Assembly (NCBI GenBank): GCA_017465845.1
Contig: JAFTVH010000158.1
Location: 1 to 59,101 of the forward strand
Length of the DNA stretch: 59,101 nucleotides
Direction of reading: 5' to 3'
DNA from: Lachnospiraceae bacterium
GTDB lineage: Bacteria; Bacillota; Clostridia; Lachnospirales; Lachnospiraceae
The notes under the pieces were generated by a model. That model ran no database searches. It was not told where the DNA came from and was given only the letters and a program-made list of their open reading frames with translations. How positions within the stretch are numbered: position 1 is the first letter of the stretch; each line of letters begins with the position of its first letter. Shown one piece after another: positions 151 to 22,609 of the stretch. Both the position numbers and the translations under genes were made by a program.

Positions 151-3100
151 ATGGGTAAAAAGAAAAGATTAAGAACAAAATTTTTTCATCTTATTTTGGC
201 ATTAATTCTTCTAGTAAGTTCGTTAGGTTCGAATATTACGTTATTAGAAGTAAATGCACAAAACAGTGTTAGTAGTGGTAATACTGTTTATGATATTGAT
301 CCTTTGAACGAAGGTAGTGACTATGTTTACTATGTAGGTGGCGAAGATGCGGCTGAGGGAAATGACGGCAGCAGCGTAGAAAAGGCCATGCCTACGATTA
401 GGGCTGCATATGATTCTTTTGCAGATAAGCTTACGGACAGCGATACTGCAACGATTGTAATCTGTGGAGAGGTTGCAGCGCATAATGATGCGTACGCAAC
501 AAATGGAGGTGATCAAACTGCGTATGAAGGATATTATTTCCCAGAGCATAAAGGAAAGGTGATCATCACTTCTACAGATGGAACCACATCCTATGCAGAT
601 AGCGCAAGCCTAAAGTTTGAAAATAAGGTTTATTACTTGCGCGGAGATACGACCTTTAAAAATATTAAGATAGGTTCTAATGCAAAACGTGTTTTTATGA
701 ACTATTATCCTTTGCATTTAGCTAAGGACATTACCGGAACTGCTTTTTCAACAGAGGTTTTTCTGGGAACCCGAAAAGCATTGACGAATAGCGGTGTGAC
801 GGTAACAGCAAAGGATGCTTTGTTTACGATGGATAGCAGCAGTGTAACAAGCCTGTATGGTGGTGGAGCTTATAATAATCCTTCGGGAGTAGAAGCATTT
901 ACTGTTACGTTGTATATAAATGACGGTAAAATAACAAATTTATATGGTACAGGCCAGAACACAAAGCATAAGAGTGTTACAGTAAATATCAATGGCGGAG
1001 CTGTTACGAATTTGTGTGGTAAGGGGACTGCTGATGCCAGTGTAACTGATGGAATAGAGTTAAATCTTAACAATCTCGACGAAAATTGGACTTGTCCAAC
1101 TACACTTAGTGGATTTACTGGCATTAAGTTGAATTCCTGCAAGGTAAGCATTCCGGGAGCTGCATTAACAGGAGTATCCACATTGTGGCTTACAGATAAC
1201 AGTGTGCTTACGCTTTCTTCAGCACCTGAAGTTGCGACAGTTAATGTTACCATTGAAAAGTCTGGTGAAGAGTGGAATACAGACAATACACAGATTACCG
1301 CGCCGGCAGGCACAGCAGAGGGTATGTTTACGCTGACAAATCAGCTGGAGGATGAATATTCCTGGAAGTATACGGCTACTGATAGCAACACTACATGGAA
1401 ACTTGCCATGAGTGGTGAGGACGAAGGTGGCTCAGGAGATGGCGATGCCGAAAGCGGCGATGGTATTCCAGGTTCGGTGATATATGTAAACGGCGTCAGC
1501 GGAAATGATGCCAATACAGGAACAGCTGCAGATGCTGCATTAAAAACAATGGGTGCAGCATATGCAAAGATTCCTTCCGATAACACAAAGACCACGATTG
1601 TGGTTTGTGGGAATGTGGATGTGTCAAATAGTGGTTTGATTAGTTATTATGATACGTATGAGCAAAAAGATGCTTTTAAGAATACATTAATGTTCCCGGC
1701 ACACAGCGGCGAGGTTGTGATCACTTCTAAGATAGGTGAAGGTGATAATGATTATACCGCTAAAGCAGCTTTAAGTTTCGGCAGTGGTAAAGAGTATATG
1801 CTGCAGGGTGCAACTACATTTGAAAATATCAACATTTCAGGTTATGCAGAAACAATGTATGCAAACTTTTACAATCTGACTTTGGGAGATGGAATTGAAA
1901 GTGAATCTAATTATTATCCGGCAAAAACAGTGTGTTTAGGATACCGACGTACAAATGGAAGCTATAATAAGACAAATGACAGTGTATTTGTTATGAACAG
2001 CGGAAAGCTCCAAACGTACTATGCCGGAACATTCTGGTACGATAGTGATTACTCTATAATGTCTACTATCATAAATGGTGGAATCATCGGAACGATTTAC
2101 GGAACTGGACCTTCAAACAATAAAGAGCAGTCTCAAGTAGATATTACCATTAATGGTGGAACGATTGGCAAATGTTACGGAGCAAGTAATAAGACTAAAG
2201 TCGGTAGTGGCGGTGTTATCATTACCTTAAATAAAGATGCAACGGTTACTACTGTATCAGCAGTAGAGCCTGCAAGTGAAACGAATACGGCAACATTAAA
2301 CGGAACGGCAACATTGAAACTGGTGGGATATGAAGCAAATACGCCATTACCTACTACAATATCTGATTTCAATTGTTTGGAATTGAGCAACAGTTCGATA
2401 ACAATAGGGGATACCTTGGCATCCATGTGGAATAAGATTACAAGGGTTTCTATGACAGATGACAGCTTGATTGCCCTGCAATTTGTTCCGGAGACTCCGA
2501 CACAGAAGGTTGGTGTAACTTTAACGAAGTCAGGTAATGAGTGGAATACAGCAACAGCTGTCATTACAGCACCAAGTAATACTGCGGATATTTTTGAGGT
2601 GATTTCACCATTGGGTTATTCTTTCTCATACGACAGTACCGTAGCGTCATGGACTTTGGCAGAGAGTCAAAGTGACATAGGGCAAAGCGGAACTGCAGGC
2701 ACCGAATTAGACATTGATTTGGGATTGCCGGAGGATGGAAGTTACACGGCGTTGTCTGCAAATGCAACTGCTTATGACACCTACCTGCAGAAGGTAGAAG
2801 ACCTGGGAGATGCGAAAGAAGAGGTCAACGTCATTCAGCCGATTGCCGTGCAGGGAGAAATTGAGCTGTATGTAGATGGCACCAATGGTGATGATAGTAA
2901 TTTGGGCAGTAAAGAGAAACCTTTTAAGACCATATCCAAAGCACTTACTTATGTAGAGGTACTACAGGAAAAGGGTGTTGACGGTGTAGTGGTATATTTG
3001 AGAGAAGGTACTTATGTTGCTACAGAAACAATTACTCTAAACGAAAAGCACTCAGGTAAGAATGGTGTACCTGTTATCATCAGCGCATATAATGATGAAA

Positions 3101-6100
3101 ACGTAGTAATTACCAGTGCAAAAGATATAGCAGGAAGTGCATTTACATCCGTAACGGATGATGCTGTGAGAACTCGTTTACAGGAATCTGTGAAAGATAA
3201 AATTGTCGCAGTTGATCTCAAAGCACAGGGAATTACAGAGTTTGGCTCTATTACATATGGTAATCTGGGTGGTCCTAGTTATCAGATCTTTGTGAACGGC
3301 TCTGAGTTTATACCTGCCAGATATCCAAATGCTGCAAATCTCTGGGTAGGTGAAGTGTTGGATGAAGGTCCTATTATTCTTGGAGCGAATGCAAATACGA
3401 ATTTGGATTCCACCGGTGTGGAATTTAAGATGCAGGATTTTAGACCAACCTTATGGAAAAACGATGGTAACATTTGGTTAAAGGGTTCTATGTATGCTGA
3501 GTGGGATATCAAGAATATCCGAGTGGCAGAAATTCGTGAGGAATCTATCAAGTTGGATGGCGGTGCTTACTATGGCGCGCGTAGTCTGGAAAGTAACACA
3601 TATTATTACTATAACGTATTGGAAGAATTGGATGCACCGGGTGAATATTACCTGGATGGTGCGAATGGTATTTTGTACCTTTATCCGGTAGCAAATATGA
3701 GTTCGGCAGTTGTAACCTATTCTGATGAAGCGAATGATTTGATTCGTTTAGAGAGCACAGAGAATGTAGTATTGAACGGATTGACGCTGGAAAATAGTGC
3801 GGCGAATGGTATTTACATGAATGGCTGTGAGCAGACCATCGTACAGAATTGTAAAATTACCAAAGTAGGTACCGGTGTTGTGCTGAATGAGTGTAAGAAG
3901 AGTGGTGTGATCTATTCGGATCTGGATGAAACTGCTAACAGACCGATAGAAATACTGCCTGCACAAAGATATTTCGATTATACTCCTGACCACAATTTTG
4001 TTCAGAATTGCTACATCCACAGTACCGGAACCAAAAATCCGAAGTTCTGCGCGATTTATGTGAGAGGAACAGGAAATGTAATTTCTCATAACCTGTTACA
4101 GGGTGGATTTTCTGTAAGCATTTATTTACAGTACGCCAAGGAATGTATTGTAGAATACAACGAAATTGTAGGAAGTCCTACAGGCACCTATGACGGTGGT
4201 GCGATTTATATCCCTTATGGTATTTCAGATACCGGACATCATATTAGATATAATTACATACATGATATAGCAGCTTTTAGTGACGAACACAATCCTTGTG
4301 CTATTTACTTTGATGAAGGATTGAGTGGAAACTACGTCTACGGTAATATCATGTCCAATGTACCATGTGGATTCTTTACGAATTCCGGTAGTGAGAATGT
4401 GATTATCAACAACGTGGTACTGGACGGCAGAACCGGAACCGTAAATGGTATCAGAGGAGAATCCAACCATGATGCATATCCGATTTCCCAGAAGGTTACA
4501 AGTGACACAAAGAAAGTTTATGATACATACACAGGTCTTTCATCCGAAAAGAAGCGGGAAGTAAGGGAGCGCTATCCATTGCAGGGAGCTTTGTATGACA
4601 GAATTGCTGCAGCCAAGGCATCCTCTACCGGTGATGCAACTACAGGACTTTTCGTATCTCATGATAATTACATTGCAAATAATGTGATTTATGACTGTAA
4701 GGGTGTGGGATTTGCAGGTACAGGTCATGTAGACCAGAATAACATAATCTTAAATGAGAATCCGTTTGCGAACGTGGCAAGTCATGATTTCTCATTAAAA
4801 TCAGGTGTGGATACCTCTGGCTGGGGCTTTACCTATAAGATTCCATCCATGGATGATATTGGTACAGTAAGAGGCAGCAAGCAGGGAATAGATACTTTTG
4901 CAACATTTATTCCGGCAGCAAGTGAAGAAAAAGTTAATCCAAACGAATTATTGTTACGCTGGACCATTGCCGGTGGTGCCGACACTTATGAATTAAAAAT
5001 AGCGACTAATGCTGACATGACAGAAAATGTTCGTACAGAAACCTTAGAGAAAACACAGCTTTGGTTTGTAGAGGATGAATACTTTGATTATGGTAAAACA
5101 TATTACTGGACAGTTACTGCATACAGTACTGCAGAATCAAGGATTGTGACACCGGTAAGTACCGGAAATCCGTCAGCTTTTACTACCATGACTTATGAAG
5201 AGTATCTGGAGAATAATAAAGTTGACATGACCAAGTTAGAAGCATCCATAACAGAGGCAGAGACATTGCTTGCCGAAGTGAAAGATATCAGTGAAGGCGG
5301 ACTGTACAACGATGGAACAAAAGCAACATTGAATGAAGCGATAGTAGCTGCTGAGGCAGTTGCTGCACTTGGCAATGCACAGACCCAGATGGATGTCAAT
5401 ACAGCAAATGATGTACTTCAGGATGCAATCTATGCGGCCAAGACACAGAGAATGATACAGTATGTTACCTTTGAACAGCTTGCTGCAGCTGACTGGTCAG
5501 ATCCATCAGGCAAGAGAATAACTACAACAGCGGAAGAGGATGAGCTGCAGATGTCTATAGCAAGTGGAAGCCGTTCAGAGGCAGTATACAGTGAAGGTGT
5601 AGGCATCAGGGATATTTTGTGTTTTAAATATAAACTGGATACAAAGGCGTCTTGGAATGGTTTTGCGATAGCTCAGACCAATACCGGTTCATTTATAACA
5701 TCCGGTACAGACGGATACTTTATCTGTATTAATCCGGGACAGGTAGAACTGCAGAAATATCAGGGCGGTTCCAAAGCAGTTCAGTTCAATGTACCAATTG
5801 ACGATACGATTTTTAACGGCGGCGAGTACTACGATATCGAGATTGGAGCTATCAATAATCCGGATGGTTCCATTGGAATTCACTTCAAAATCAACGATAC
5901 AGTAATTTTTGATCCTGAGGTATTTGTAGATACCGTAGACGATAAAGTAATTGCAGGTACGGAACAGACAATTCCGGGAAGTCCGATCACTAATGAGACA
6001 AACTTTGGTGTGGTTGTAAATCCGGGCAATGGGACCTCCTACATAAAAAAGGCAGATTTAGCAGAAGAAATTAAGGTGGCAATAAATAATGTTGGATCTG

Positions 6101-6510
6101 AGACATCTAATGTAGAAATCTCTGCGCCGTCAGATGGTTGGGTGGAAGGTACCAATACCTTTACTGTTGCTGCAGAAAGTGCAAGTACGGTACTGATCAG
6201 TAACGATGGCGGTACAACCTATACTCGCTTGACAGCCGCAGAAACAGATACAGAAAACTGCTACAGTTTTACCGCAGAAAACGTAACAGCCGACACGGTA
6301 ATTACCGTCGCACTTTCCGGTGACGTGAATGGAGATGGTAAACTTAATATTGTGGACAGCTTTAAAGTAAAGGCAGCAGCGTTAGGCAATGCGACACTGG
6401 AAGGTATTGCAGTCTATACAGGCGACGTAAACGGTGACGGCAAGCACAACATTGTGGATAGTTTCAAGGTAAAATCAGTCATTTTAGGTAATGGGGATAT
6501 TAGTTGGTAA
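151..6510 (+). CDS. Secreted multidomain beta-helix protein (GH141-like) with C-terminal type I dockerin
   Basis: A 2119-residue exported protein. The start at 151 is preferred over the in-frame ATG at 130 because GGGAG lies 7-11 bases upstream and the lysine-rich signal peptide (KKKRLRTKFFHLILALILL) then begins at residue 3. Domain order by eye: signal peptide 1-38; beta-helix module A about 60-430; homologous module B about 445-850; a larger right-handed beta-helix about 900-1560 opening with LYVDGTNGDDSNLGSKEKPF and containing an EYYLDGANGILYLYP segment like GH141-type enzymes; an Fn3-like domain about 1580-1685; a FIVAR-like helical segment about 1690-1765; a jelly-roll-like domain about 1768-1985; and a dockerin about 2057-2118 with two calcium loops (DVNGDGKLNIVD and DVNGDGKHNIVD). 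The beta-helix suggests action on a complex polysaccharide, but catalytic residues were not assigned. The next two genes encode cohesin-like partners. Confidence 0.8.
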   Translation: MGKKKRLRTKFFHLILALILLVSSLGSNITLLEVNAQNSVSSGNTVYDIDPLNEGSDYVYYVGGEDAAEGNDGSSVEKAMPTIRAAYDSFADKLTDSDTATIVICGEVAAHNDAYATNGGDQTAYEGYYFPEHKGKVIITSTDGTTSYADSASLKFENKVYYLRGDTTFKNIKIGSNAKRVFMNYYPLHLAKDITGTAFSTEVFLGTRKALTNSGVTVTAKDALFTMDSSSVTSLYGGGAYNNPSGVEAFTVTLYINDGKITNLYGTGQNTKHKSVTVNINGGAVTNLCGKGTADASVTDGIELNLNNLDENWTCPTTLSGFTGIKLNSCKVSIPGAALTGVSTLWLTDNSVLTLSSAPEVATVNVTIEKSGEEWNTDNTQITAPAGTAEGMFTLTNQLEDEYSWKYTATDSNTTWKLAMSGEDEGGSGDGDAESGDGIPGSVIYVNGVSGNDANTGTAADAALKTMGAAYAKIPSDNTKTTIVVCGNVDVSNSGLISYYDTYEQKDAFKNTLMFPAHSGEVVITSKIGEGDNDYTAKAALSFGSGKEYMLQGATTFENINISGYAETMYANFYNLTLGDGIESESNYYPAKTVCLGYRRTNGSYNKTNDSVFVMNSGKLQTYYAGTFWYDSDYSIMSTIINGGIIGTIYGTGPSNNKEQSQVDITINGGTIGKCYGASNKTKVGSGGVIITLNKDATVTTVSAVEPASETNTATLNGTATLKLVGYEANTPLPTTISDFNCLELSNSSITIGDTLASMWNKITRVSMTDDSLIALQFVPETPTQKVGVTLTKSGNEWNTATAVITAPSNTADIFEVISPLGYSFSYDSTVASWTLAESQSDIGQSGTAGTELDIDLGLPEDGSYTALSANATAYDTYLQKVEDLGDAKEEVNVIQPIAVQGEIELYVDGTNGDDSNLGSKEKPFKTISKALTYVEVLQEKGVDGVVVYLREGTYVATETITLNEKHSGKNGVPVIISAYNDENVVITSAKDIAGSAFTSVTDDAVRTRLQESVKDKIVAVDLKAQGITEFGSITYGNLGGPSYQIFVNGSEFIPARYPNAANLWVGEVLDEGPIILGANANTNLDSTGVEFKMQDFRPTLWKNDGNIWLKGSMYAEWDIKNIRVAEIREESIKLDGGAYYGARSLESNTYYYYNVLEELDAPGEYYLDGANGILYLYPVANMSSAVVTYSDEANDLIRLESTENVVLNGLTLENSAANGIYMNGCEQTIVQNCKITKVGTGVVLNECKKSGVIYSDLDETANRPIEILPAQRYFDYTPDHNFVQNCYIHSTGTKNPKFCAIYVRGTGNVISHNLLQGGFSVSIYLQYAKECIVEYNEIVGSPTGTYDGGAIYIPYGISDTGHHIRYNYIHDIAAFSDEHNPCAIYFDEGLSGNYVYGNIMSNVPCGFFTNSGSENVIINNVVLDGRTGTVNGIRGESNHDAYPISQKVTSDTKKVYDTYTGLSSEKKREVRERYPLQGALYDRIAAAKASSTGDATTGLFVSHDNYIANNVIYDCKGVGFAGTGHVDQNNIILNENPFANVASHDFSLKSGVDTSGWGFTYKIPSMDDIGTVRGSKQGIDTFATFIPAASEEKVNPNELLLRWTIAGGADTYELKIATNADMTENVRTETLEKTQLWFVEDEYFDYGKTYYWTVTAYSTAESRIVTPVSTGNPSAFTTMTYEEYLENNKVDMTKLEASITEAETLLAEVKDISEGGLYNDGTKATLNEAIVAAEAVAALGNAQTQMDVNTANDVLQDAIYAAKTQRMIQYVTFEQLAAADWSDPSGKRITTTAEEDELQMSIASGSRSEAVYSEGVGIRDILCFKYKLDTKASWNGFAIAQTNTGSFITSGTDGYFICINPGQVELQKYQGGSKAVQFNVPIDDTIFNGGEYYDIEIGAINNPDGSIGIHFKINDTVIFDPEVFVDTVDDKVIAGTEQTIPGSPITNETNFGVVVNPGNGTSYIKKADLAEEIKVAINNVGSETSNVEISAPSDGWVEGTNTFTVAAESASTVLISNDGGTTYTRLTAAETDTENCYSFTAENVTADTVITVALSGDVNGDGKLNIVDSFKVKAAALGNATLEGIAVYTGDVNGDGKHNIVDSFKVKSVILGNGDISW

Positions 6511-6521
6511 GGAGAAAGAAC

Positions 6522-8693
6522 ATGAAAAAAGGGATAAAGAAATTGTTGTCCTTTGTGCTTTGTATGTGCCTTTGTATGCCTGCTTTTCCGGTACAGGCAG
6601 AAGAGGAGAGTGCTACTTCAGAAACTACATTCACTGCAACCTTGGACAAGGCGTCCATTTATGAAAGCAGTGTGGACCAGACAGTAGTTATGACTGTAAA
6701 TGCAGATCAGCCTACTACACTGGCGGCTATTGGTGCTACGGTTTACTGTGATAATGCATTTATGCTGACCGGAATTACAAGCACGGATACGCGTATAGAT
6801 TTTACCGGAAATGTAAATGTGGATAATGGAAAAATTGACTGGTATGATTCCGATTTAGCGACATACTCAGATGTAACCAATATTGCAGTGGCAACCTTTA
6901 CCGTACCAGCAAACACTTCAGCGGGAAATTATGAGGTCGGCTTGAAAGAGTTGATATTGCTGGATGGAAACGGTAATCCTTTTGTGAATGAAGTGACTGT
7001 TTCTGCAACACTTGAAGTAAAAAGTGCAGAAGAGGTTATCAACTATGCAGCAGGAATTTCTGCTTCGGGTAATGCTTTAGAGGTTGGAGATACTGTAAAT
7101 ATTAATATTGCGGTATCCCACAGTACAGAAGCAGCTTTTGCAGCGGCTGAAATCACAGTGGGTTATGACAGCAGTGTACTGAGCTTTGATGCAGAGACAT
7201 TTAAAACAAACTATCCAAGCGTGAGTGCAGATACTGCAATCGCGAATACTTTGAAGCTGGTAGACCACGGTGCGTCTAAGACATTCGGGGAGAACGGTTA
7301 TGTGTATACCGTACCGTTTAAGGCAGATGCGGCAGCGGATAATACAAATGTGACTTTGGATTCTGCAGGCTTTGCTACGCAGACAGAAGCAGAGACCAAG
7401 GATCTTGTAGTAGCTAACCGTAATCCGGAAAGTGTTACTTTGAATATTTCAAAGAAGTCTTTAACGGTTACTTTGCCGGAAGGTGATATTCTGTTGGGTG
7501 AAGAGAATGTCATTTACGGAGAAAGCTATACCTTTATATTAGCGGACAAGGATAATTATGACTATACCATTGAAAGTGTGACAGTGGGCGGTACTGACGT
7601 AACGGAAAGTATCATTGATAATGGTGACGGTAGTTATACTGTTCCGAGTGTTACAGGAGAAATGGTAATTAACGCAACCCGCACTGCAAAGAGCTATAGT
7701 GTAACCATCGAAGGTACTGCGGGAGAAGGCGAGGTTATTGGTACTACCGGTGAAGATGCAGCAACTTACGGCACAGCATATACTTTTACCGTACCGGTAA
7801 ATTCGGAGGAATATAGTTATGAAGTTGCGATTACAATTGATGGAAGTACTTATACGAATGCAACATCAGTGTCCGGTACAGATGTAGTTACATACACCGT
7901 TCCGGGAACAGACATTACCGGTGATATAGTTATCACAGTAACAAAAACAGCGCTTGGAGAAAAAGAAGTGGCAGTTACGATCCCATCTGGTGTAGATGCA
8001 ACAGGTGATGCAATCGTAACAATTGGCCAGTCTTATACTCTGACCCTTACCGAGGAAGCAGGCTATATTTACATGGTTACAGCAACTATGGAGAATAGTG
8101 ATTCTGTTGCATTGACAGAAGGAACCGATGATGCCGGAAATAAGACCTACACCATTGCAAACGTAACTGGAGCAATCGTATTTAATATTACGAAAACAGT
8201 TGATATAAACGGTGTTACTGTTAGCCAGTATATCCAGTTAAATGGCACTATTATGTGGCTGGTGGAAAATACTACTGTCGTAGCAGAGGGCAAGGTACCG
8301 ACTTATAACGGAGCAAATATGTTCTGGTCCGATGCATACGGCAGTGACGCAGACGGTGATAACGTAAATGACGGAGCATACTGCTATCTGGTGATTTCCG
8401 GCGACAGTGCAGACACTGTCCTTGCAGCAGCAAAATCAGCCTTGAGCATTGCAAGCTTAAGCGGAACAGTAGTGGAAGTAACTTACGATAATGACGTAAA
8501 CGAAACCGGCAAGGTAGATGCAAGCGATGCGCAGCTGGTATGGAATATGTATAATGTGAAGTATTCAGATTTTACCGAAGATGTGACTGTAGCAAAATTC
8601 CTGGAAGCTGATGTGAATGGTGATAAAACTGTAGACACCGAAGACGCAGCAGCAATTATCAGTGCGATTCTTGAAAATGCAGGTACAAATTAA
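6522..8693 (+). CDS. Secreted adaptor scaffoldin: two cohesin-like domains plus dockerin
   Basis: A 723-residue exported protein. The start is ATG 6522 with AAGGAGA at 6509-6515; a TTG at 6504 lies upstream but has no suitable site. Signal peptide 1-27 ends FPVQA-EE. Two beta-sandwich domains follow (about 35-165 and 172-300), with the cohesin pattern of a GDTVNINIAV-type strand, YDSSVLSF, and an ATFTVPAN or VYTVPFKAD strand. Three short repeats about 305-560 (AVTIPSG, SYTFIL, TYTVPGTDITGDIVITVT type) act as linkers. A possible X-like module about 565-645 precedes a dockerin about 650-720. Its first calcium loop is degenerate (DVNETGKVDASD, Thr at position 5) and its second is canonical (DVNGDKTVDTED). 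Eleven bases separate it from the dockerin enzyme. It probably links enzyme dockerins to the anchor encoded next. Assignment as cohesin is by pattern, not by search. Confidence 0.7.
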   Translation: MKKGIKKLLSFVLCMCLCMPAFPVQAEEESATSETTFTATLDKASIYESSVDQTVVMTVNADQPTTLAAIGATVYCDNAFMLTGITSTDTRIDFTGNVNVDNGKIDWYDSDLATYSDVTNIAVATFTVPANTSAGNYEVGLKELILLDGNGNPFVNEVTVSATLEVKSAEEVINYAAGISASGNALEVGDTVNINIAVSHSTEAAFAAAEITVGYDSSVLSFDAETFKTNYPSVSADTAIANTLKLVDHGASKTFGENGYVYTVPFKADAAADNTNVTLDSAGFATQTEAETKDLVVANRNPESVTLNISKKSLTVTLPEGDILLGEENVIYGESYTFILADKDNYDYTIESVTVGGTDVTESIIDNGDGSYTVPSVTGEMVINATRTAKSYSVTIEGTAGEGEVIGTTGEDAATYGTAYTFTVPVNSEEYSYEVAITIDGSTYTNATSVSGTDVVTYTVPGTDITGDIVITVTKTALGEKEVAVTIPSGVDATGDAIVTIGQSYTLTLTEEAGYIYMVTATMENSDSVALTEGTDDAGNKTYTIANVTGAIVFNITKTVDINGVTVSQYIQLNGTIMWLVENTTVVAEGKVPTYNGANMFWSDAYGSDADGDNVNDGAYCYLVISGDSADTVLAAAKSALSIASLSGTVVEVTYDNDVNETGKVDASDAQLVWNMYNVKYSDFTEDVTVAKFLEADVNGDKTVDTEDAAAIISAILENAGTN

Positions 8694-8717
8694 TATGCCT
8701 GTAAGGAAGGAAGGGAT

Positions 8718-9665
8718 ATGATGCGAAAAATATTTGGCACCATACTGCGCATACTTTTGTTATTACTAATGTTTTCTGGCAATATTATAAGCGTATCAGC
8801 AGAAGAGTCTTTGGGAAGTGTAAACACAGCGGGAGGAGTCACGCATAGTGGCTCCCCTGCCCCTTCCTTTTCCTTTGAACTTTCTGTAGATGGTAAGGAT
8901 ATCAAAGAAGTAGAGTTCGGAGATATCATCACAGTGGTTTTGCGCCTGAAAAGAACAGATGCAAACGAACCATATACCATGTATGCCATGCAGGATGAAA
9001 TCCGCTATGACAGTACCTTTTTTGAATTGATGGGAGACAGTGCGGTGTTAGGAAATGGCATTGCATCCACGGACATAGCCATGGTGGATCAATATAGAGA
9101 ATTTTATATGAACTATCTGTCTATGAATGGCGGAGAGGAGTGGAATGCAGACACACTTATCGGCAGTTTTCAGTTGAAAGTAGTAGGGGAATCGGGGGTC
9201 ACCAAAATTACAAATCAGGATTATCTGGTGTCCCTACAAGACGGAAGCGACAGTTATCCCTGTAATGCCAATGAAGTAACCATAATTCTATCAACAGATT
9301 GTGTAGTAACTTTCCGGACTAACGGCGGCAGCGAATTGGATGATATAACAGTGTTATTCGGAGAAAAGATTAAGCGTCCGAATGATCCTGTCAGAGAAGG
9401 TTTTCGGTTTGAAGGCTGGTTCAAGGATATTCATTTGACAGAGGAGTGGAATTTTGAGAACGATACTGTTCAGGAAAATATGTCCCTGTATGCGAAGTGG
9501 AGTGCAGTAGAGATGGAAGAGGATGTGCTTGGAACAGATATAACAGCAGAAACTTCTGATATGAATCAGGTAGCTGGATATTGGTGGTGGACCTTGGTTC
9601 TTATTCTTCTGATTTTGGTGTTGATATGGTTTCGCAAGCATAAGGGAGAAAAGAATAAAGAATAA
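8718..9665 (+). CDS. Membrane-anchored cohesin-like protein with InlB-type repeat
   Basis: A 315-residue type I membrane protein. Ribosome site GGAAGG lies just before ATG 8718. The signal peptide (MMRKIFGTILRILLLLLMFS) is followed by a cohesin-like beta-sandwich about 45-195 with ITVVLRLKRT, IRYDSTFFELMG and LIGSFQLKVVGESG strands. Next is one Listeria-Bacteroides (InlB B) repeat about 197-265 (VTFRTNGGSE ... GFRFEGWFKD ... MSLYAKW). A single transmembrane helix (WWWTLVLILLILVLIWF) and a basic tail RKHKGEKNKE close the protein. No LPXTG motif is present, so it is held by its membrane span rather than by sortase. It is third in a row with the dockerin enzyme and the cohesin-dockerin adaptor, 24 bases after the latter, which suggests it is the cell-surface anchor of that complex. 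Confidence 0.7.
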   Translation: MMRKIFGTILRILLLLLMFSGNIISVSAEESLGSVNTAGGVTHSGSPAPSFSFELSVDGKDIKEVEFGDIITVVLRLKRTDANEPYTMYAMQDEIRYDSTFFELMGDSAVLGNGIASTDIAMVDQYREFYMNYLSMNGGEEWNADTLIGSFQLKVVGESGVTKITNQDYLVSLQDGSDSYPCNANEVTIILSTDCVVTFRTNGGSELDDITVLFGEKIKRPNDPVREGFRFEGWFKDIHLTEEWNFENDTVQENMSLYAKWSAVEMEEDVLGTDITAETSDMNQVAGYWWWTLVLILLILVLIWFRKHKGEKNKE

Positions 9666-9706: not shown

Positions 9707-10429
9707 ATGAACGTATTAGCAATTGGAAACAGTTATTCAGCAGATGGTACAAGGTATGTACATCAGCTTGCAGAAAGCTGTGGTGAGAACATTAATATTA
9801 CCAACCTTGTTATAGGTGGGTGTACACTGGAAAGACATTTTAGAAATATGCATTCAGGGGAAAAAGTATATCAGCATGAATTTAATGGTATTGGTACTGG
9901 ATTAAATGTATCGTTAAAGGATGCATTGCTTATTAGAGAATGGGATGTGATGACCATTCAGCAACAGAGCTTTAACAGTACGATGTATGATACATTTCAG
10001 CCATATTTAAACGAACTGGTTGCGTATATCCGTAAGCTTGCACCAAAGGCCAAAATCGCTTTACAGCAGACCTGGGGATATAGAGATGGTGAAAAGTCTT
10101 TGAGATCTTATAAAAGCGGCAGTGTCATGTTTGCGGATGTAAAGGTGAGCTATGCACGGGCAGCGGAAGAAATTCAGGCAGATATGATCATCAAATCCGG
10201 TGAAGTGTTTGAAGGCTTGAAGGCAAATGGAGTTTATGACTATTTCAGAGATCCGATACATGCATCCTTGGGACTTGGCAGATATGCCCTTGGACTAATG
10301 TGGGTAAAAACACTTACAGGTAAAAGCCCATATGAGACTGGGGAAATCAGGCTGGACGAAGAAGTAAGTAAAGAGCATTTGGAAATTGCAAAAAAAGTTG
10401 TAGAGGAAATTGATTGTACGAGGATTTGA
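9707..10429 (+). CDS. DUF4886-type SGNH-like hydrolase
   Basis: A 240-residue cytoplasmic protein (no signal peptide) with AAAGGAGGAG before its ATG. The N-terminus AIGNSYSADG is the block I nucleophile region of SGNH/GDSL-like enzymes of the DUF4886 family, with Ser9 as probable nucleophile. The C-terminal DPIHASLGLGRYALG supplies the Asp-x-x-His pair (block V). A QQQSFN block and LQQTWGY lie between. Members of this family are often found near polysaccharide-degrading genes and are thought to be carbohydrate esterases or related hydrolases, but the substrate here is unknown. It begins a same-strand run with very small gaps; the next gene starts 1 base after its stop, so the two are almost certainly translated together. 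Confidence 0.75.
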   Translation: MNVLAIGNSYSADGTRYVHQLAESCGENINITNLVIGGCTLERHFRNMHSGEKVYQHEFNGIGTGLNVSLKDALLIREWDVMTIQQQSFNSTMYDTFQPYLNELVAYIRKLAPKAKIALQQTWGYRDGEKSLRSYKSGSVMFADVKVSYARAAEEIQADMIIKSGEVFEGLKANGVYDYFRDPIHASLGLGRYALGLMWVKTLTGKSPYETGEIRLDEEVSKEHLEIAKKVVEEIDCTRI

Positions 10430-10430
10430 A

Positions 10431-11627
10431 ATGAGAACAGCAAAATTATATCCCTATATACCAGAACCACAGCCGGTAAAAAGTGATTACATGATTGCAT
10501 GTCACTATTATCCCGGATGGAAAAAGGGAGCAGAATTGGTTAAACATAATCGTTTTGATGATTTGATTAATTTTCCGGAGAGAACACCATTACTTGGATA
10601 CTATGACGAAGAAAATCCGGAAGTATGCGATTGGGAAATTAAATGGGCAGTAGAGCATGGAATCGGTTGCTTTATTCATTGTTGGTATCGAAAAAGAGAC
10701 AATGTTGGAAAGAAAATTACAGTTAATGATTTGAGGCTTGCACATGGAATCCATGAGGCATATTTTAATTGCAAATTTAAAAAATACATGAAATTTGCAA
10801 TTATGTGGGAATGTCAATGGGGACTTATTTCAGGTATGGACGATTTGGTAAATAATTTAATACCATTTTGGGTTGAGAACTATTTTAAGGATGAGCAGTA
10901 TTTGACGATTGACGGTAAGCCGGTGTTGTATATTTATGACATGAAGAATCTCATTAATTTTTGGGGTTCAGAGGAAAAAAATGCAGAAATGATAGCAGTG
11001 ATTCATGAAGAAATCAAAAAATATGGTTTCACCGGTATACACATTTCTGCAACACATAGTCAGAATGATATTCATGAACGAAATAGGTGGCATACACCTA
11101 TAGGGAAAATGAAAGAAATGGGATTAGATTCTATTTTTCAGTATTGTCAGCAGGTAGGGATTGATGAATTGACGGACGAACAGTATCAGGAATATTTAAA
11201 GACTTTAATGTTAAAGCCTGAATTTATTATCGAAGATCAGCTGAAAAAGATTCAGGACCGTATCGATTATGATCCATACTTTGGGATGTATACGGTATCC
11301 TGTATGAGAGATTCAAGACCTTGGTTTCCGATATTTAATATCGATCCAAAGAAGCCAATGATGCAGTATCGAATTTCTCCAATGGAATATAAAGGACTTC
11401 TGAAAAAATTCAAGGAGAAGATTGATAAATTGCCGGAGGACTCCATCGGCAGAAGAATTGTGGTAATTGATAACTGGAATGAATGGTCAGAAGGACATTA
11501 CGTGGCTCCTTGTTTGGAAAACGGTTTTCAGTATCTTCAGGCAATCAGAGAGATCCTTACCTGTTGTGATAATCTTCCGGATTATAGAGTTCCGGAAATG
11601 CTTAATTTTGGTCCATATGAATCTTAG
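10431..11627 (+). CDS. WbsX / glycoside hydrolase family 99-like protein
   Basis: A 398-residue soluble protein. Start ATG 10431 is chosen (ACGAGG upstream); a TTG at 10410 inside the preceding gene is less likely. The sequence has the features of the WbsX/GH99-like family (PF14307 type): an early YYPGW block, PLLGYYDEENPEV, a WAVEHGIGCFIHCWY strand, DGKPVLYIYD and a late NWNEWSEGHYVAP segment. Known relatives occur in O-antigen and glycan loci and have a TIM-barrel fold like endo-alpha-mannosidases, though many lack demonstrated activity. No signal peptide is present, so it would act inside the cell. Its 1-base gap to the DUF4886 gene suggests the two enzymes process the same imported glycan fragment (inference). 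Confidence 0.75.
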   Translation: MRTAKLYPYIPEPQPVKSDYMIACHYYPGWKKGAELVKHNRFDDLINFPERTPLLGYYDEENPEVCDWEIKWAVEHGIGCFIHCWYRKRDNVGKKITVNDLRLAHGIHEAYFNCKFKKYMKFAIMWECQWGLISGMDDLVNNLIPFWVENYFKDEQYLTIDGKPVLYIYDMKNLINFWGSEEKNAEMIAVIHEEIKKYGFTGIHISATHSQNDIHERNRWHTPIGKMKEMGLDSIFQYCQQVGIDELTDEQYQEYLKTLMLKPEFIIEDQLKKIQDRIDYDPYFGMYTVSCMRDSRPWFPIFNIDPKKPMMQYRISPMEYKGLLKKFKEKIDKLPEDSIGRRIVVIDNWNEWSEGHYVAPCLENGFQYLQAIREILTCCDNLPDYRVPEMLNFGPYES

Positions 11628-18889: not shown

Positions 18890-20364
18890 ATGAGATATTT
18901 AAAGAAAACAATGACCGGAAAGAAGGGACGTCCAATTAAGGTTGTACAGTTCGGAGAAGGAAATTTCCTTCGGGCATTTGTAGATTACATGATCGATATT
19001 GCAAATGAGAAGACTGATTTTAATGGTGATATTGTCCTGTTAAAGCCAATTGAGTTCGGCAGTCTGGACATGTTCCATAAACAAGAATGCCAATATACCG
19101 TTTCCCTGAGAGGAAATGTAGAGGGTAAGGCTACCGTACTCAACAGACAGATTACCAGCGTGGCAGATGCTGTGGATTCTATCAATGAATATGAAAAATA
19201 TATGGGATTGGCGGAGATTGATACCCTACGTTTTGTAGTTTCCAATACGACCGAAGCTGGTATAGTATATGATGATTCTGATAAGTTTGAATATACTCCT
19301 CCTAAGACATTCCCCGGAAAGTTGACCAAGTTCTTATATCATAGATTCGAAACCTTTCATGGAGATAAAAACAAGGGGTTGTGATGCTTCCCGTAGAGCT
19401 GATCGATGACAACGGTATCATGTTAAAGAAGTGTGTTATGCAGTTGATTGAGTGTTGGGAACTGAGTGATGATTTCAAAAACTGGGTGGAAGAAGCCTGT
19501 ATTTTCACATCTACTTTGGTGGATCGTATCGTAACCGGTTATCCCAGAGCAACGGAAGCAGAAGAGTGGGAAAAGCTTGGTTACGAAGATCGTATTATGG
19601 TAACCGGTGAACCGTTTGCCCTTTGGGTCATTGAATCGGATAAGGATATCAGGGAAGAATTGCCTCTGGATAAGGCTATGACAGATATGCCCGGAATGGA
19701 CGTGATCTTTACGGACAATCAAAAGCCCTACAAGCAGAGAAAAGTCCGCATACTAAATGGTGCACATACTTCCTTCGTGCTTGCTGCATATCTGACAGGA
19801 AAGGATATCGTGAGGGATTCCATGCAGGATGATGATATCCGAAACTTTATGTTAAAGACCATTTATGAGGAAGTGCTCCCTACCTTAAGTCTTCCTGAAG
19901 AGGAGTTAAGGACTTTCGCAGGAGAAGTGGTGAACCGTTTTAACAATCCATACGTGGATCATGCACTACTTGCGATCTCCTTAAACTCTGTTTCTAAGTG
20001 GAGAGCAAGATGTATGCCCAGCTTCTTAGGGTATGTGGAAAAAATGGGCAAATTACCTGTACATTTAACCTTCTCTCTGGCAGCACTGATGGCGTTCTAT
20101 ACCGGTACCGAGATCAGAGGAAAGGCTTTGATCGGACACAGGGATGGTCAGGAATATAATATTATGGACGATATGACAGTATTGGAATTCTTCCGGGATA
20201 ACAGTGAAAAAGAAACAAGAGAGTTTGTTGCTGCATTCCTTGGCAGGGAGGATTTCTTTGGTCAGAACTTAAATGAAGTGGCTGGCCTGACCGATGCAGT
20301 AACGGCTTATTTAGAAGATATCAAGACAAATGGCATGAGGGCAGCATTATGCAGGATTTCTTAA
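18890..20364 (+). pseudogene. uxaB: Tagaturonate reductase gene with internal frameshift
   Basis: Two abutting frames (18890-19384 and 19381-20364) together give about 491 residues, the normal length of the mannitol-dehydrogenase-like tagaturonate reductase. The N-terminal half has the nucleotide-binding VVQFGEGNFLRAFVDYMID and the C-terminal half has the VRILNGAHTSFVLAAYL catalytic segment. The break is at the run ending in GGGGTTGTGATG near 19376-19386. One missing G would restore KGL-V-MLPVEL in a single frame, so this is a one-base loss. The stop TGA overlaps an ATG, which could allow re-initiation, but splitting the Rossmann and helical domains is not known for this family. Sequencing error is an alternative. 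The enzyme would reduce tagaturonate to altronate in galacturonate breakdown; GGGGTG precedes the start. Confidence 0.8.
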
Positions 20365-20984: not shown

Positions 20985-21188
20985 ATGGAGAATATAAATT
21001 GTCCTTGTAAAAAGATAAAGTGTGAAAGGCCGATGTGTATACTCCATGTCGGCCTTTTTCCATTTGAAGAGATTATTGCTTGTGAACGGAGCGTGGATTG
21101 GATTTTTCATATGATCGAAATATACTTGAACAGTGGAGGTGAAACAAAGTGGACTTATGTAAAAATGGGAAAATGCTGTATGAGTTAA
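20985..21188 (+). pseudogene. Possible remnant of a small Cys-rich protein
   Basis: An ATG with AAAGGA eight bases upstream opens MENINCPCKKIKCER, which looks like the start of tiny cysteine-rich proteins seen in related bacteria. After this the frame runs directly through a strong terminator hairpin and into the next gene's start, which a real 67-residue gene would not be expected to do. I think only the first 15 codons are original. Low confidence that anything functional is made. Confidence 0.25.
21025..21059 (+). terminator. Rho-independent terminator
   Basis: A 9-bp perfect stem AAAGGCCGA / TCGGCCTTT with a loop of about 15 bases, ending in a T-run (21055-21059). It closes the decayed uxa/tfoX region ahead of the HTH-methyltransferase gene. 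Confidence 0.8.
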
Positions 21189-22609
21189 GAAGAGCAAAAG
21201 GAATGACACAAAAACAAGTGGCGGAACAGTTGGGTGTACTCCCTAAAACTGTTTCCAAATGGGAAACGGGACATGGATTTCCAGATACGTCTTTATTAGC
21301 AAAGCTATCAGAGACTCTGGGAGTTAGTGTTGACACTCTATTGTCAGGTGATCTGAATCAAAATATGGAAGAAGTGGGTAATATGAAAAAATTGAAAATT
21401 TATGTATGTCCTCATTGTGGAGGATTTATGCATGTCATGGGTGATAGTCAGATTACATGTTGTGGAAAGCAGTTGATACCTTTAAAAGCATCTGAGGTAA
21501 ATTCTGATCATGTAATGGCCATTGAAGAGATTGAAAACGATTATTATGTAACTTTTCTGCATGAGATGACAAAAGAACATTATATCAGCTTTATTTCTTA
21601 TGTTACGTTTGATAAGGTTTTAACTGTGAAACTGTATCCAGAACAAGATTCAGCAGTTAGATTTCCACGGTTATATGGTGGGAAGTTTTATTTTTATTGT
21701 AATAATCATGGATTGTTTGAATATGATCCTAGAGGAAAAAAGAAAATGAAAAACGAAAAAAAATCAAGTCTGACAGCTTTAATGTCTGCGTTTTCAAGAG
21801 CATATGTATATGAACATAGTGAGAATCCTGTATTTTCAGATGAATTTGCAAGGACAATGTTTTTGGAAGCTGATTATAAGCAAATGGAGAGGTATATATC
21901 ATTAGCGAATGAAGATGTAAAAGATTATGTTTATACAAATTTAGCACCGACACCTATTGGAAGAAGCAGGTTTTGCGAAGATTGCTTAGAAACAGCTATT
22001 ATAACTGGTACAACGCAGTATGTTATTTTAGGGTGTGGATTTGACACTTATGCTTTTAGAAATAATCATAAAGGTTTGCAGATATTCGAGATAGACAAAG
22101 ATGTGACGATAGAAGATAAGATGAAGCGGATAGAACAGAGCGGACTTGCAATTCCAGATAATGTTCATTATATAGCTGCTGATCTGTCCAAGGATAATCT
22201 GAAAGAAGTATTGAAAAATCATGGGTTTGATGTTAATAAGAAAACATTGTTTTCTTGTCTTGGGCTTTTATATTATCTTTCCAGAGACGAAATTTCAAAA
22301 CTCTTTGCAAGTATTTCTGAAACAGGAACAGATGGAGATACAGTTGTCTTTGACTGTGCCGATGGGCATTTATTTTCATCAGGAGTTCCAAGAGTAAAAA
22401 ATATGCTCGCAATGGCCGAAAAAAGTGGAGAAGCAATGAAATCCTGTTTTGGTTATACAGAGTTGGAAAAAGAGCTTGAAAAACATGGCTTTTTGATATA
22501 TGAATTCCTTAATCGGGACGAAATTCAAAGCAGATATTTTGACAAATGTGATGATGGTATGACGGCCTTTGAAAACATCAATTATGTGCAGGCTGTTTGG
22601 AAAAGATAA
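21149..22609 (+). CDS. Triple fusion: XRE HTH + superoxide-reductase-like domain + LCM-type methyltransferase
   Basis: A 486-residue protein starting at GTG 21149 with GGAGGT eight bases before it. Residues 1-65 are a classical XRE helix-turn-helix (MTQKQVAEQLGVLPKTVSKW). Residues about 75-195 form a small metal-binding domain: CPHCGG, CCGK, then HEMTKEHYISF and YCNNHGLFEYD, which keep the His, His, Cys, His ligand order of the superoxide reductase/desulfoferrodoxin centre. Many Clostridia have two-domain HTH+SOR-like proteins that stop here. This one continues into about residues 205-486, a leucine-carboxyl-methyltransferase-like SAM domain (SRFCEDCLETAI, YVILGCGFDTYAF, IFEIDKD, YIAADLS, SCLGLLYYLS). 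It may be a redox or metal-responsive regulator carrying its own methyltransferase. The target is unknown. Confidence 0.8.
   Translation: MDLCKNGKMLYELRRAKGMTQKQVAEQLGVLPKTVSKWETGHGFPDTSLLAKLSETLGVSVDTLLSGDLNQNMEEVGNMKKLKIYVCPHCGGFMHVMGDSQITCCGKQLIPLKASEVNSDHVMAIEEIENDYYVTFLHEMTKEHYISFISYVTFDKVLTVKLYPEQDSAVRFPRLYGGKFYFYCNNHGLFEYDPRGKKKMKNEKKSSLTALMSAFSRAYVYEHSENPVFSDEFARTMFLEADYKQMERYISLANEDVKDYVYTNLAPTPIGRSRFCEDCLETAIITGTTQYVILGCGFDTYAFRNNHKGLQIFEIDKDVTIEDKMKRIEQSGLAIPDNVHYIAADLSKDNLKEVLKNHGFDVNKKTLFSCLGLLYYLSRDEISKLFASISETGTDGDTVVFDCADGHLFSSGVPRVKNMLAMAEKSGEAMKSCFGYTELEKELEKHGFLIYEFLNRDEIQSRYFDKCDDGMTAFENINYVQAVWKR

Follow-up and report, generated by a model that had tools for sequence, protein, structure and literature searches.

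Three adjacent genes of a Lachnospiraceae bacterium likely encode a short dockerin-cohesin chain that displays a beta-helix protein on the cell surface

The first three genes of contig JAFTVH010000158.1 from a Lachnospiraceae bacterium (assembly GCA_017465845.1), here named A, B and C, encode a secreted beta-helix protein with a dockerin, an adaptor with two cohesins and a dockerin of its own, and a cohesin-like protein with a C-terminal membrane helix; throughout, the window is the entire stretch analysed, i.e. 59,101 nucleotides. An earlier note on this DNA had proposed this order of proteins, and open reading frames (ORFs), Pfam matches and hydrophobic segments all agree with it. From these sequences, we consider it likely that the three proteins assemble on the cell surface into a short chain of enzyme, adaptor and anchor. 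A would be secreted without a visible anchor of its own, and its C-terminal dockerin (DocA) would dock into the first cohesin of B (CohB1) and possibly into the second (CohB2); the different dockerin of B (DocB) would dock into the cohesin-like domain of C (CohC), and C would hold the chain in the cytoplasmic membrane through its C-terminal helix. We infer the binding events, the assignment of each dockerin to a cohesin, and the catalytic activity and substrate of A.

The three genes are co-directional on the plus strand and closely spaced. Gene A (151-6510; ORF from ATG 130, 2126 amino acids, with the better-looking ribosome-binding site at ATG 151) is separated by 11 bases from gene B (6522-8693; ORF 6504-8693, 729 amino acids, likely start ATG 6522), which is followed after 24 bases by gene C (8718-9665, 315 amino acids) and then, after 41 bases, by the next gene. 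In a simple scan, no plus-strand terminator-like sites were listed in these three gaps. Each of the three proteins has one N-terminal hydrophobic segment, and C has an additional one at residues 284-302.

The core of A, a beta-helix resembling those of carbohydrate-active enzymes (CAZymes; residues about 923-1441, positions 2896-4452), was recognised by Pfam Beta_helix (E 1.2e-7) and is related to PDB entry 9rx2 (E 2.8e-12), while GH141_M matched A only weakly and partially (13 bits, under the cut-off of 27). Further downstream are a FIVAR-like module (5224-5439; 24.1 bits, below the cut-off of 29.2), an immunoglobulin (Ig)-like module immediately before the dockerin (6070-6309; labelled by eye, and conserved with four proteins of the relative G222 described below) and DocA (6319-6477), which scores 29.5 bits with Dockerin_1 (PF00404) at residues 2064-2116 against a cut-off of 22.9. 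DocA is a type I dockerin in which both calcium-loop repeats are intact and nearly identical; in known type I dockerins, near-identical loops go with two binding orientations. When the A-type tail is searched as a five-sequence profile, its best solved relatives are dockerins of enzymes, of type I (best E 8.7e-6). On FIVAR together with cohesins, dockerins and Clostridium perfringens, the literature search brought up only two papers, both on force spectroscopy.

Relatives of the A core are encoded on contigs C179, C104 and C135 of the same genome, and no dockerin was detected in any of the three in a genome search at E<=1e-3. The two large ones, of 2004 (C179) and about 2120 (C104) amino acids, end in a C-terminal hydrophobic helix that begins at residues 1972 and 2090, respectively; the C104 protein (L110:5091-11453) is a surface protein that carries GH141_M above the cut-off (33.9 bits against 27) and CBM9_1 in addition to its own terminal helix. 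Because these two large relatives carry their own membrane helix, the anchoring of A seems to have been handed over to partner proteins.

B consists of a signal peptide, two cohesins, repeats, an X-like module and a dockerin. As a whole protein it scores 34.3 bits with Cohesin (PF00963; cut-off 24.1) over two stretches, CohB1 (6666-7016) and CohB2 (7074-7409), and CohB2 as an isolated domain scores 37.1 bits. DocB (8493-8672, residues 664-723) scores 30.3 bits with Dockerin_1 (cut-off 22.9). Calcium-loop repeats were located in both DocA and DocB; DocB is asymmetric and has, in loop 1, T where D is usual. Its best solved relative is a dockerin of the adaptor ScaB (4uyq), a weak match at E 0.01 from a two-sequence profile. 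Because it combines more than one cohesin with a dockerin, B falls under the 'polyvalent adaptor' scaffoldins as passages of PMC11557425 describe them.

C consists of a signal peptide, CohC (8913-9275), a Flg_new (List_Bact_rpt) domain (9306-9497, residues 197-260) and the C-terminal hydrophobic, presumably transmembrane, helix (9567-9623) with a basic tail. CohC is probably a divergent cohesin. Up to E 10, a Pfam search with the isolated domain lists Cohesin and no other family, and Cohesin is also the best family (17.3 bits) for the ortholog of CohC in the relative G217, which is 58% identical. To CohC and this ortholog together, hhalign assigned a probability of 80% (score 36.3, 44 aligned columns) against 28 cohesin-type sequences, i.e. 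14 Pfam cohesin hits and the N-terminal parts of 14 of the 16 helix-anchored pair proteins described below (those of L144 and L154 were left out); 60 shuffles scored at most 21.6, and seven other controls (B repeats, X module, cadherin-like, jelly-roll-like, Fn3-like, Ig-like and reversed) at most 22.6. With a 14-sequence cohesin set, hhalign gave C 38% at E 3.4e-4. Because of the 80% hhalign probability, homology of CohC to cohesins is likely, despite the sub-threshold Pfam score. At E<=1e-3, no paralog of C was found in its own genome. A search of 200 genomes of the family with whole C gave matches in 98; the listed matches lay on the Flg_new stretch and were discarded as evidence on C.

The earlier note had C anchored by a transmembrane helix rather than by sortase or S-layer homology (SLH) anchoring. 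The helix is present, and a pattern search turned up no LPxTG-like motif in either C or its ortholog in G217. As a novelty, we rejected this mode of anchoring: passages of PMC11557425 already define 'nonSLH-anchoring' scaffoldins by at least one cohesin plus a C-terminal transmembrane helix or other wall-binding motif. Compared with that class, C has the helix and a cohesin score below threshold.

The evidence on pairing comes from relatives, for which 138 genomes of the same genus were searched, the own genome included. B-like sequences occur in four of them (own, G217, G220 and G222) and C-like sequences in two (own and G217); Pfam dockerins were found in 42 and Pfam cohesins in five, a set that excludes G217, G220 and G222. 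In all four genomes with a B-like cohesin gene, the gene immediately upstream of it encodes a dockerin protein. G217 (L126) keeps the gene order of the window: a dockerin gene with its 5' end off the contig comes first, then a B homolog of full length and finally a C homolog (the dockerin gene ends at 862, and the B and C ORFs begin at 858 and 3002). Identity to the window is 35% for B and 58% for C; at the joints, with the modules of the B homolog assigned by alignment to B alone, it is 23% for the cargo dockerin, 28% for CohB1 (z 2.3) and 31% for CohB2 versus 53% for DocB and 58% for CohC.

In G222 (L107:1-16295, contig C43; JAFQIE010000044.1 of Lachnospiraceae bacterium RGIG1842, from goat cecum), four tandem dockerin proteins of 986 (5'-open), 468, 1233 and 2063 amino acids precede a lipoprotein-like protein of 537 amino acids with one CohB1-like cohesin, which is 41% identical to CohB1 (z 20.3). 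All four have the A-type tail of Ig-like module and dockerin (about 40% identity over 126-150 amino acids by BLAST), and this contig was the sole match of the A-tail alignment among named genomes. Genome searches found neither a C-like anchor nor a B match beyond the first cohesin in G222. Two separate dockerin/cohesin pairs are conserved in two relatives. Across G217 and G222, the joint on the cargo side varies independently of the one on the anchor side, as would be expected if DocA pairs with CohB1 and DocB with CohC, and this supports that pairing. In G220 (L127), a dockerin protein of 3621 amino acids (5'-open as fetched) is followed by a protein of 2023 amino acids with a CohB1-like stretch and a C-terminal PKTG-plus-helix end. 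Thus, anchoring differs among the relatives, being lipoprotein-like, by PKTG and helix, or by a dockerin onto a membrane protein. B as a single query had no relative among named genomes, and the CohB1 alignment matched only the own genome among 397 genomes of the family. In a scan of viral contigs, CohC matched nothing and the A tail gave four matches of 33-47% identity.

Several results weigh against a chain of this kind. In the profile check proposed in the earlier note, both dockerins (of A and of B) and, in the whole protein, the cohesins of B scored above the cut-off, and the Cohesin match of C stayed below 24.1 bits both in the whole protein (18.7 bits, E 0.0022) and in isolated CohC (20.7 bits, E 5e-4). 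A hidden Markov model built from 14 cohesin sequences did not match C significantly (E 26; G217 ortholog 0.084), the AlphaFold2 model of the B dockerin with C, run without relatives, had a mean predicted local distance difference test score of 37.7, too low to inform on fold or interface, and PDB profile searches with B, C, CohC and CohB2 returned no cohesin. As an isolated domain, CohB1 scores 21.4 bits, likewise below the cut-off. CohB2 has no visible partner; it might bind another A molecule, a cargo not seen here, or B. No glycoside hydrolase (GH) or polysaccharide lyase (PL) family was found over its cut-off in A, and the C135 relative of A, of 609 amino acids, has no helix. In the relatives, the G217 B homolog has no Pfam cohesin up to E 10 and a dockerin of only 8.9 bits, the B-like stretch of G220 has no Pfam cohesin, and much of the likeness between the tails of A and the G222 proteins comes from the Ig-like module, whereas the dockerins as such are 25-31% identical. 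Finally, the pairing evidence comes from two relatives, both of them draft genomes (85% and 74% complete).

A chain of enzyme, adaptor and anchor nevertheless best explains the three genes, with the pairing supported by G217 and G222, and the question becomes how far it extends. The earlier note called it complete and self-contained, with one visible enzyme, and dedicated to one glycan. The contig starts only 129 bases upstream of the ORF of gene A, the assembly (4.19 Mb in 201 contigs) is 85.44% complete, G222 has four dockerin proteins per cohesin, and B has two cohesins for one visible cargo. Thus, it may be, although we rate this below an even chance, that the chain is real and serves several cargos, as in G222, with other dockerin proteins encoded just beyond where the contig ends or in the portion of the genome that the assembly lacks. 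A Pfam search of the whole genome at E<=1e-3 speaks for a single cargo: it found two Dockerin_1 and two Cohesin matches, all in A and B, and thus no further dockerin in the 4.19 Mb searched, a check that the earlier note had suggested. This negative is not airtight because the same search missed the cohesin of C itself. Completeness and dedication to one glycan consequently go beyond what a contig end and an incomplete genome allow.

The remaining alternatives concern what the proteins do. That A is a glycan-binding adhesin rather than an enzyme, and that the chain displays this adhesin, we regard as unlikely: the missing GH or PL match fits an adhesin, FIVAR-like and Ig-like modules occur in adhesins too, and the four G222 cargos carry LRR_5, Glug and Big_3 domains without an evident enzyme at E<=0.01; however, the core of A is related to 9rx2 and to the GH141_M-bearing C104 protein, WbsX/GH99-like, epimerase-type and dehydrogenase-type genes lie in the run after C, and the genes beside the C104 and C179 relatives are presumably ABC sugar-transporter genes. 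It is less probable still that DocB binds a cohesin of B, with B forming homopolymers or folding back on itself and C acting separately. In its favour, CohB2 lacks an obvious partner and dockerin specificity is not readable from sequence here; however, C and DocB are jointly conserved in G217 while the cohesins of B drift, and C lies only 24 bases downstream of B. Finally, we give very little credence to the cohesin-like and dockerin-like domains being building blocks without binding. CohC scores low, and 18 of 75 dockerin-positive genomes of the family have no Pfam cohesin at E<=1e-3 in a search known to miss cohesins, but DocA retains both of its calcium loops as near-identical repeats, and the genes are adjacent in 4/4 B-like cases.

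Built from cellulosome modules, the putative A-B-C chain, which recurs in a relative, is a small version of something known rather than a new kind of machine. In the complex cellulosome of Acetivibrio, enzyme, adaptor ScaB and anchoring ScaC are joined by two different dockerin/cohesin pairs. Enzyme, adaptor, anchor and two pairs are proposed for the window too, and DocB resembles the ScaB dockerin; unlike that system, A, B and C have no listed carbohydrate-binding module (CBM) or SLH domain, and they have few cohesins and one visible cargo. Up to E 1, no Pfam family of lignocellulose-active enzymes was found in A, B or C and no CBM3 on a scaffoldin. Because several dockerin enzymes on one scaffold define a cellulosome, and a single cargo dockerin was found in the 85%-complete genome, we do not file the window as one.

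The locus resembles, at its small end, the 'scaffoldin-containing' group of PMC11557425, which in the passages concerned comprises four genomes that have no scaffoldin larger than one with two cohesins and are judged there as unlikely to make conventional cellulosomes. There, Lachnoclostridium sp. MSJ-17 is likewise described with a largest scaffoldin of two cohesins and a dockerin and with single-cohesin proteins ending in a membrane helix; unlike in B, the dockerin sits at the N terminus there, and as many as 39 dockerin proteins could be bound by the MSJ-17 scaffoldins, whereas the window shows one cargo and three adjacent genes. The minimal cellulosome of Clostridium saccharoperbutylacetonicum, the smallest one known in 2020 according to passages of PMC7157769, shares a two-cohesin scaffoldin with the window and differs by its eight dockerin enzymes and its CBM3 and X2 modules; those passages mention no scaffoldin dockerin. 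The mucinolysome of Limousia, as given in parts of PMC12997984, is also from a gut member of the Bacillota and has scaffoldins with dockerins of their own, for which a cell-wall anchor protein is the predicted partner, but it comprises 3-6 scaffoldins, up to 22 dockerin CAZymes and an anchor with a sortase motif.

The earlier note also suggested that the locus would rank among the smallest cellulosome-like systems. This is not supported, since pairs of just two genes, one for a dockerin protein and one for a cohesin protein, are frequent in the family. In a sample of 200 genomes from across the Lachnospiraceae, 75 have Dockerin_1, 84 have Cohesin and 57 have both (E<=1e-3); dockerin and cohesin lie within 5 kb in at least 35 genomes and within 1 kb in 28, counts that cover 59 of the 75 dockerin genomes, the own genome included. 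A strict pattern, in which a dockerin protein is followed 7-45 bases on by a protein with a hydrophobic helix, was found in 16 of 28 loci that had been picked for having a dockerin, and 11 of the 16 follower proteins pass the cohesin profile at the inclusion threshold. In the recurrent pair (L052-L056, L063, L064, L135-L140, L143, L144, L147, L152 and L154), the secreted dockerin protein mostly has 543-882 amino acids, and its partner is a membrane-helix protein with a cohesin-like N terminus. Among 12 dockerin proteins of pairs that were scanned, SH3_3 matched eight (four at or over the cut-off), Cadherin-like 11 and Glucosaminidase two, below the cut-off; a gene near the pair in L054 and L055 resembles prfC. 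These pairs may be simple tethers, perhaps for cell-wall proteins and maybe family-wide; we found no publications uniting dockerin, cohesin, peptidoglycan hydrolase and glucosaminidase. As in the window, a dockerin protein occurs together with a cohesin-like protein that has a membrane helix, here one of each, but these pairs lack an adaptor, and their cargo is mostly of the SH3_3/Cadherin-like type and not a beta-helix. Larger arrangements occur as well: in L057, a protein of 883 amino acids with cohesin and dockerin precedes a cohesin protein of 605 amino acids with a C-terminal helix, and in L060, a helix-anchored cohesin protein of 316 amino acids precedes a protein with three cohesin-profile matches.

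If binding is as proposed, three adjacent genes would give a nearly complete natural enzyme-adaptor-anchor assembly that can be studied with a handful of proteins and whose two joints seem to evolve independently of each other. Tentatively, and with somewhat more doubt than confidence, we suggest that B and C are a portable two-gene anchoring cassette, in which the cargo dockerin and the cargo-side cohesins of B are swapped between species and the DocB/CohC joint is kept, and which here took the place of a membrane helix that the glycan-active beta-helix protein once carried itself; family-wide, such joints would ordinarily tether single surface proteins, with multi-enzyme scaffolds as the special case. 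In Lachnospiraceae, the presence of dockerins and cohesins does not on its own indicate a cellulosome. This bears on surveys that count genomes with both modules, such as the one of 4333 human-gut metagenome-assembled genomes reported in PMC12997984.

In the apparent operon, gene C is followed on the plus strand (9707-11627) by genes for a DUF4886 protein (9707-10429) and a WbsX/GH99-like protein (10410-11627). The run continues with SDR, weak 3-dehydroquinate dehydratase matches, and amidohydrolase-like, epimerase-type and zinc-dehydrogenase-type genes; it fits glycan or sugar use and points to no particular substrate.

Some further loci with cohesins or dockerins in the family were unusual. 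In L051:7836-10497 (G226), a purple-acid-phosphatase-like protein has a dockerin and, in its interior, a stretch that resembles a cohesin (E 0.0033 with a profile of our own), seemingly enzyme and adaptor fused in one protein; its neighbour is a protein of 221 amino acids with a C-terminal helix and no Pfam family. DUF4430 proteins are encoded near cohesin/dockerin genes in L050:12117-18740 and L126:11257-12741, possibly as a cohesin-displayed ligand-capture system; in L050, nearby genes are presumably of ABC/ECF transporters, and we take the start of a dockerin protein there to resemble a terpenoid-cyclase-like end. In L129 and L130 (G319:C20), three similar proteins with a dockerin near the N terminus are encoded about 13 kb apart, amid repeated genes that are presumably for mobilisation.

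Elsewhere in the window, a gene of the mannitol dehydrogenase family (18890-20364) is split over two overlapping ORFs, one with the N-terminal part and the other with the rest and the C-terminal domain; this split is a frameshift or an assembly error. Moreover, a single ORF at 21149-22609 combines a helix-turn-helix regulator domain with a leucine-carboxyl-methyltransferase-type domain.

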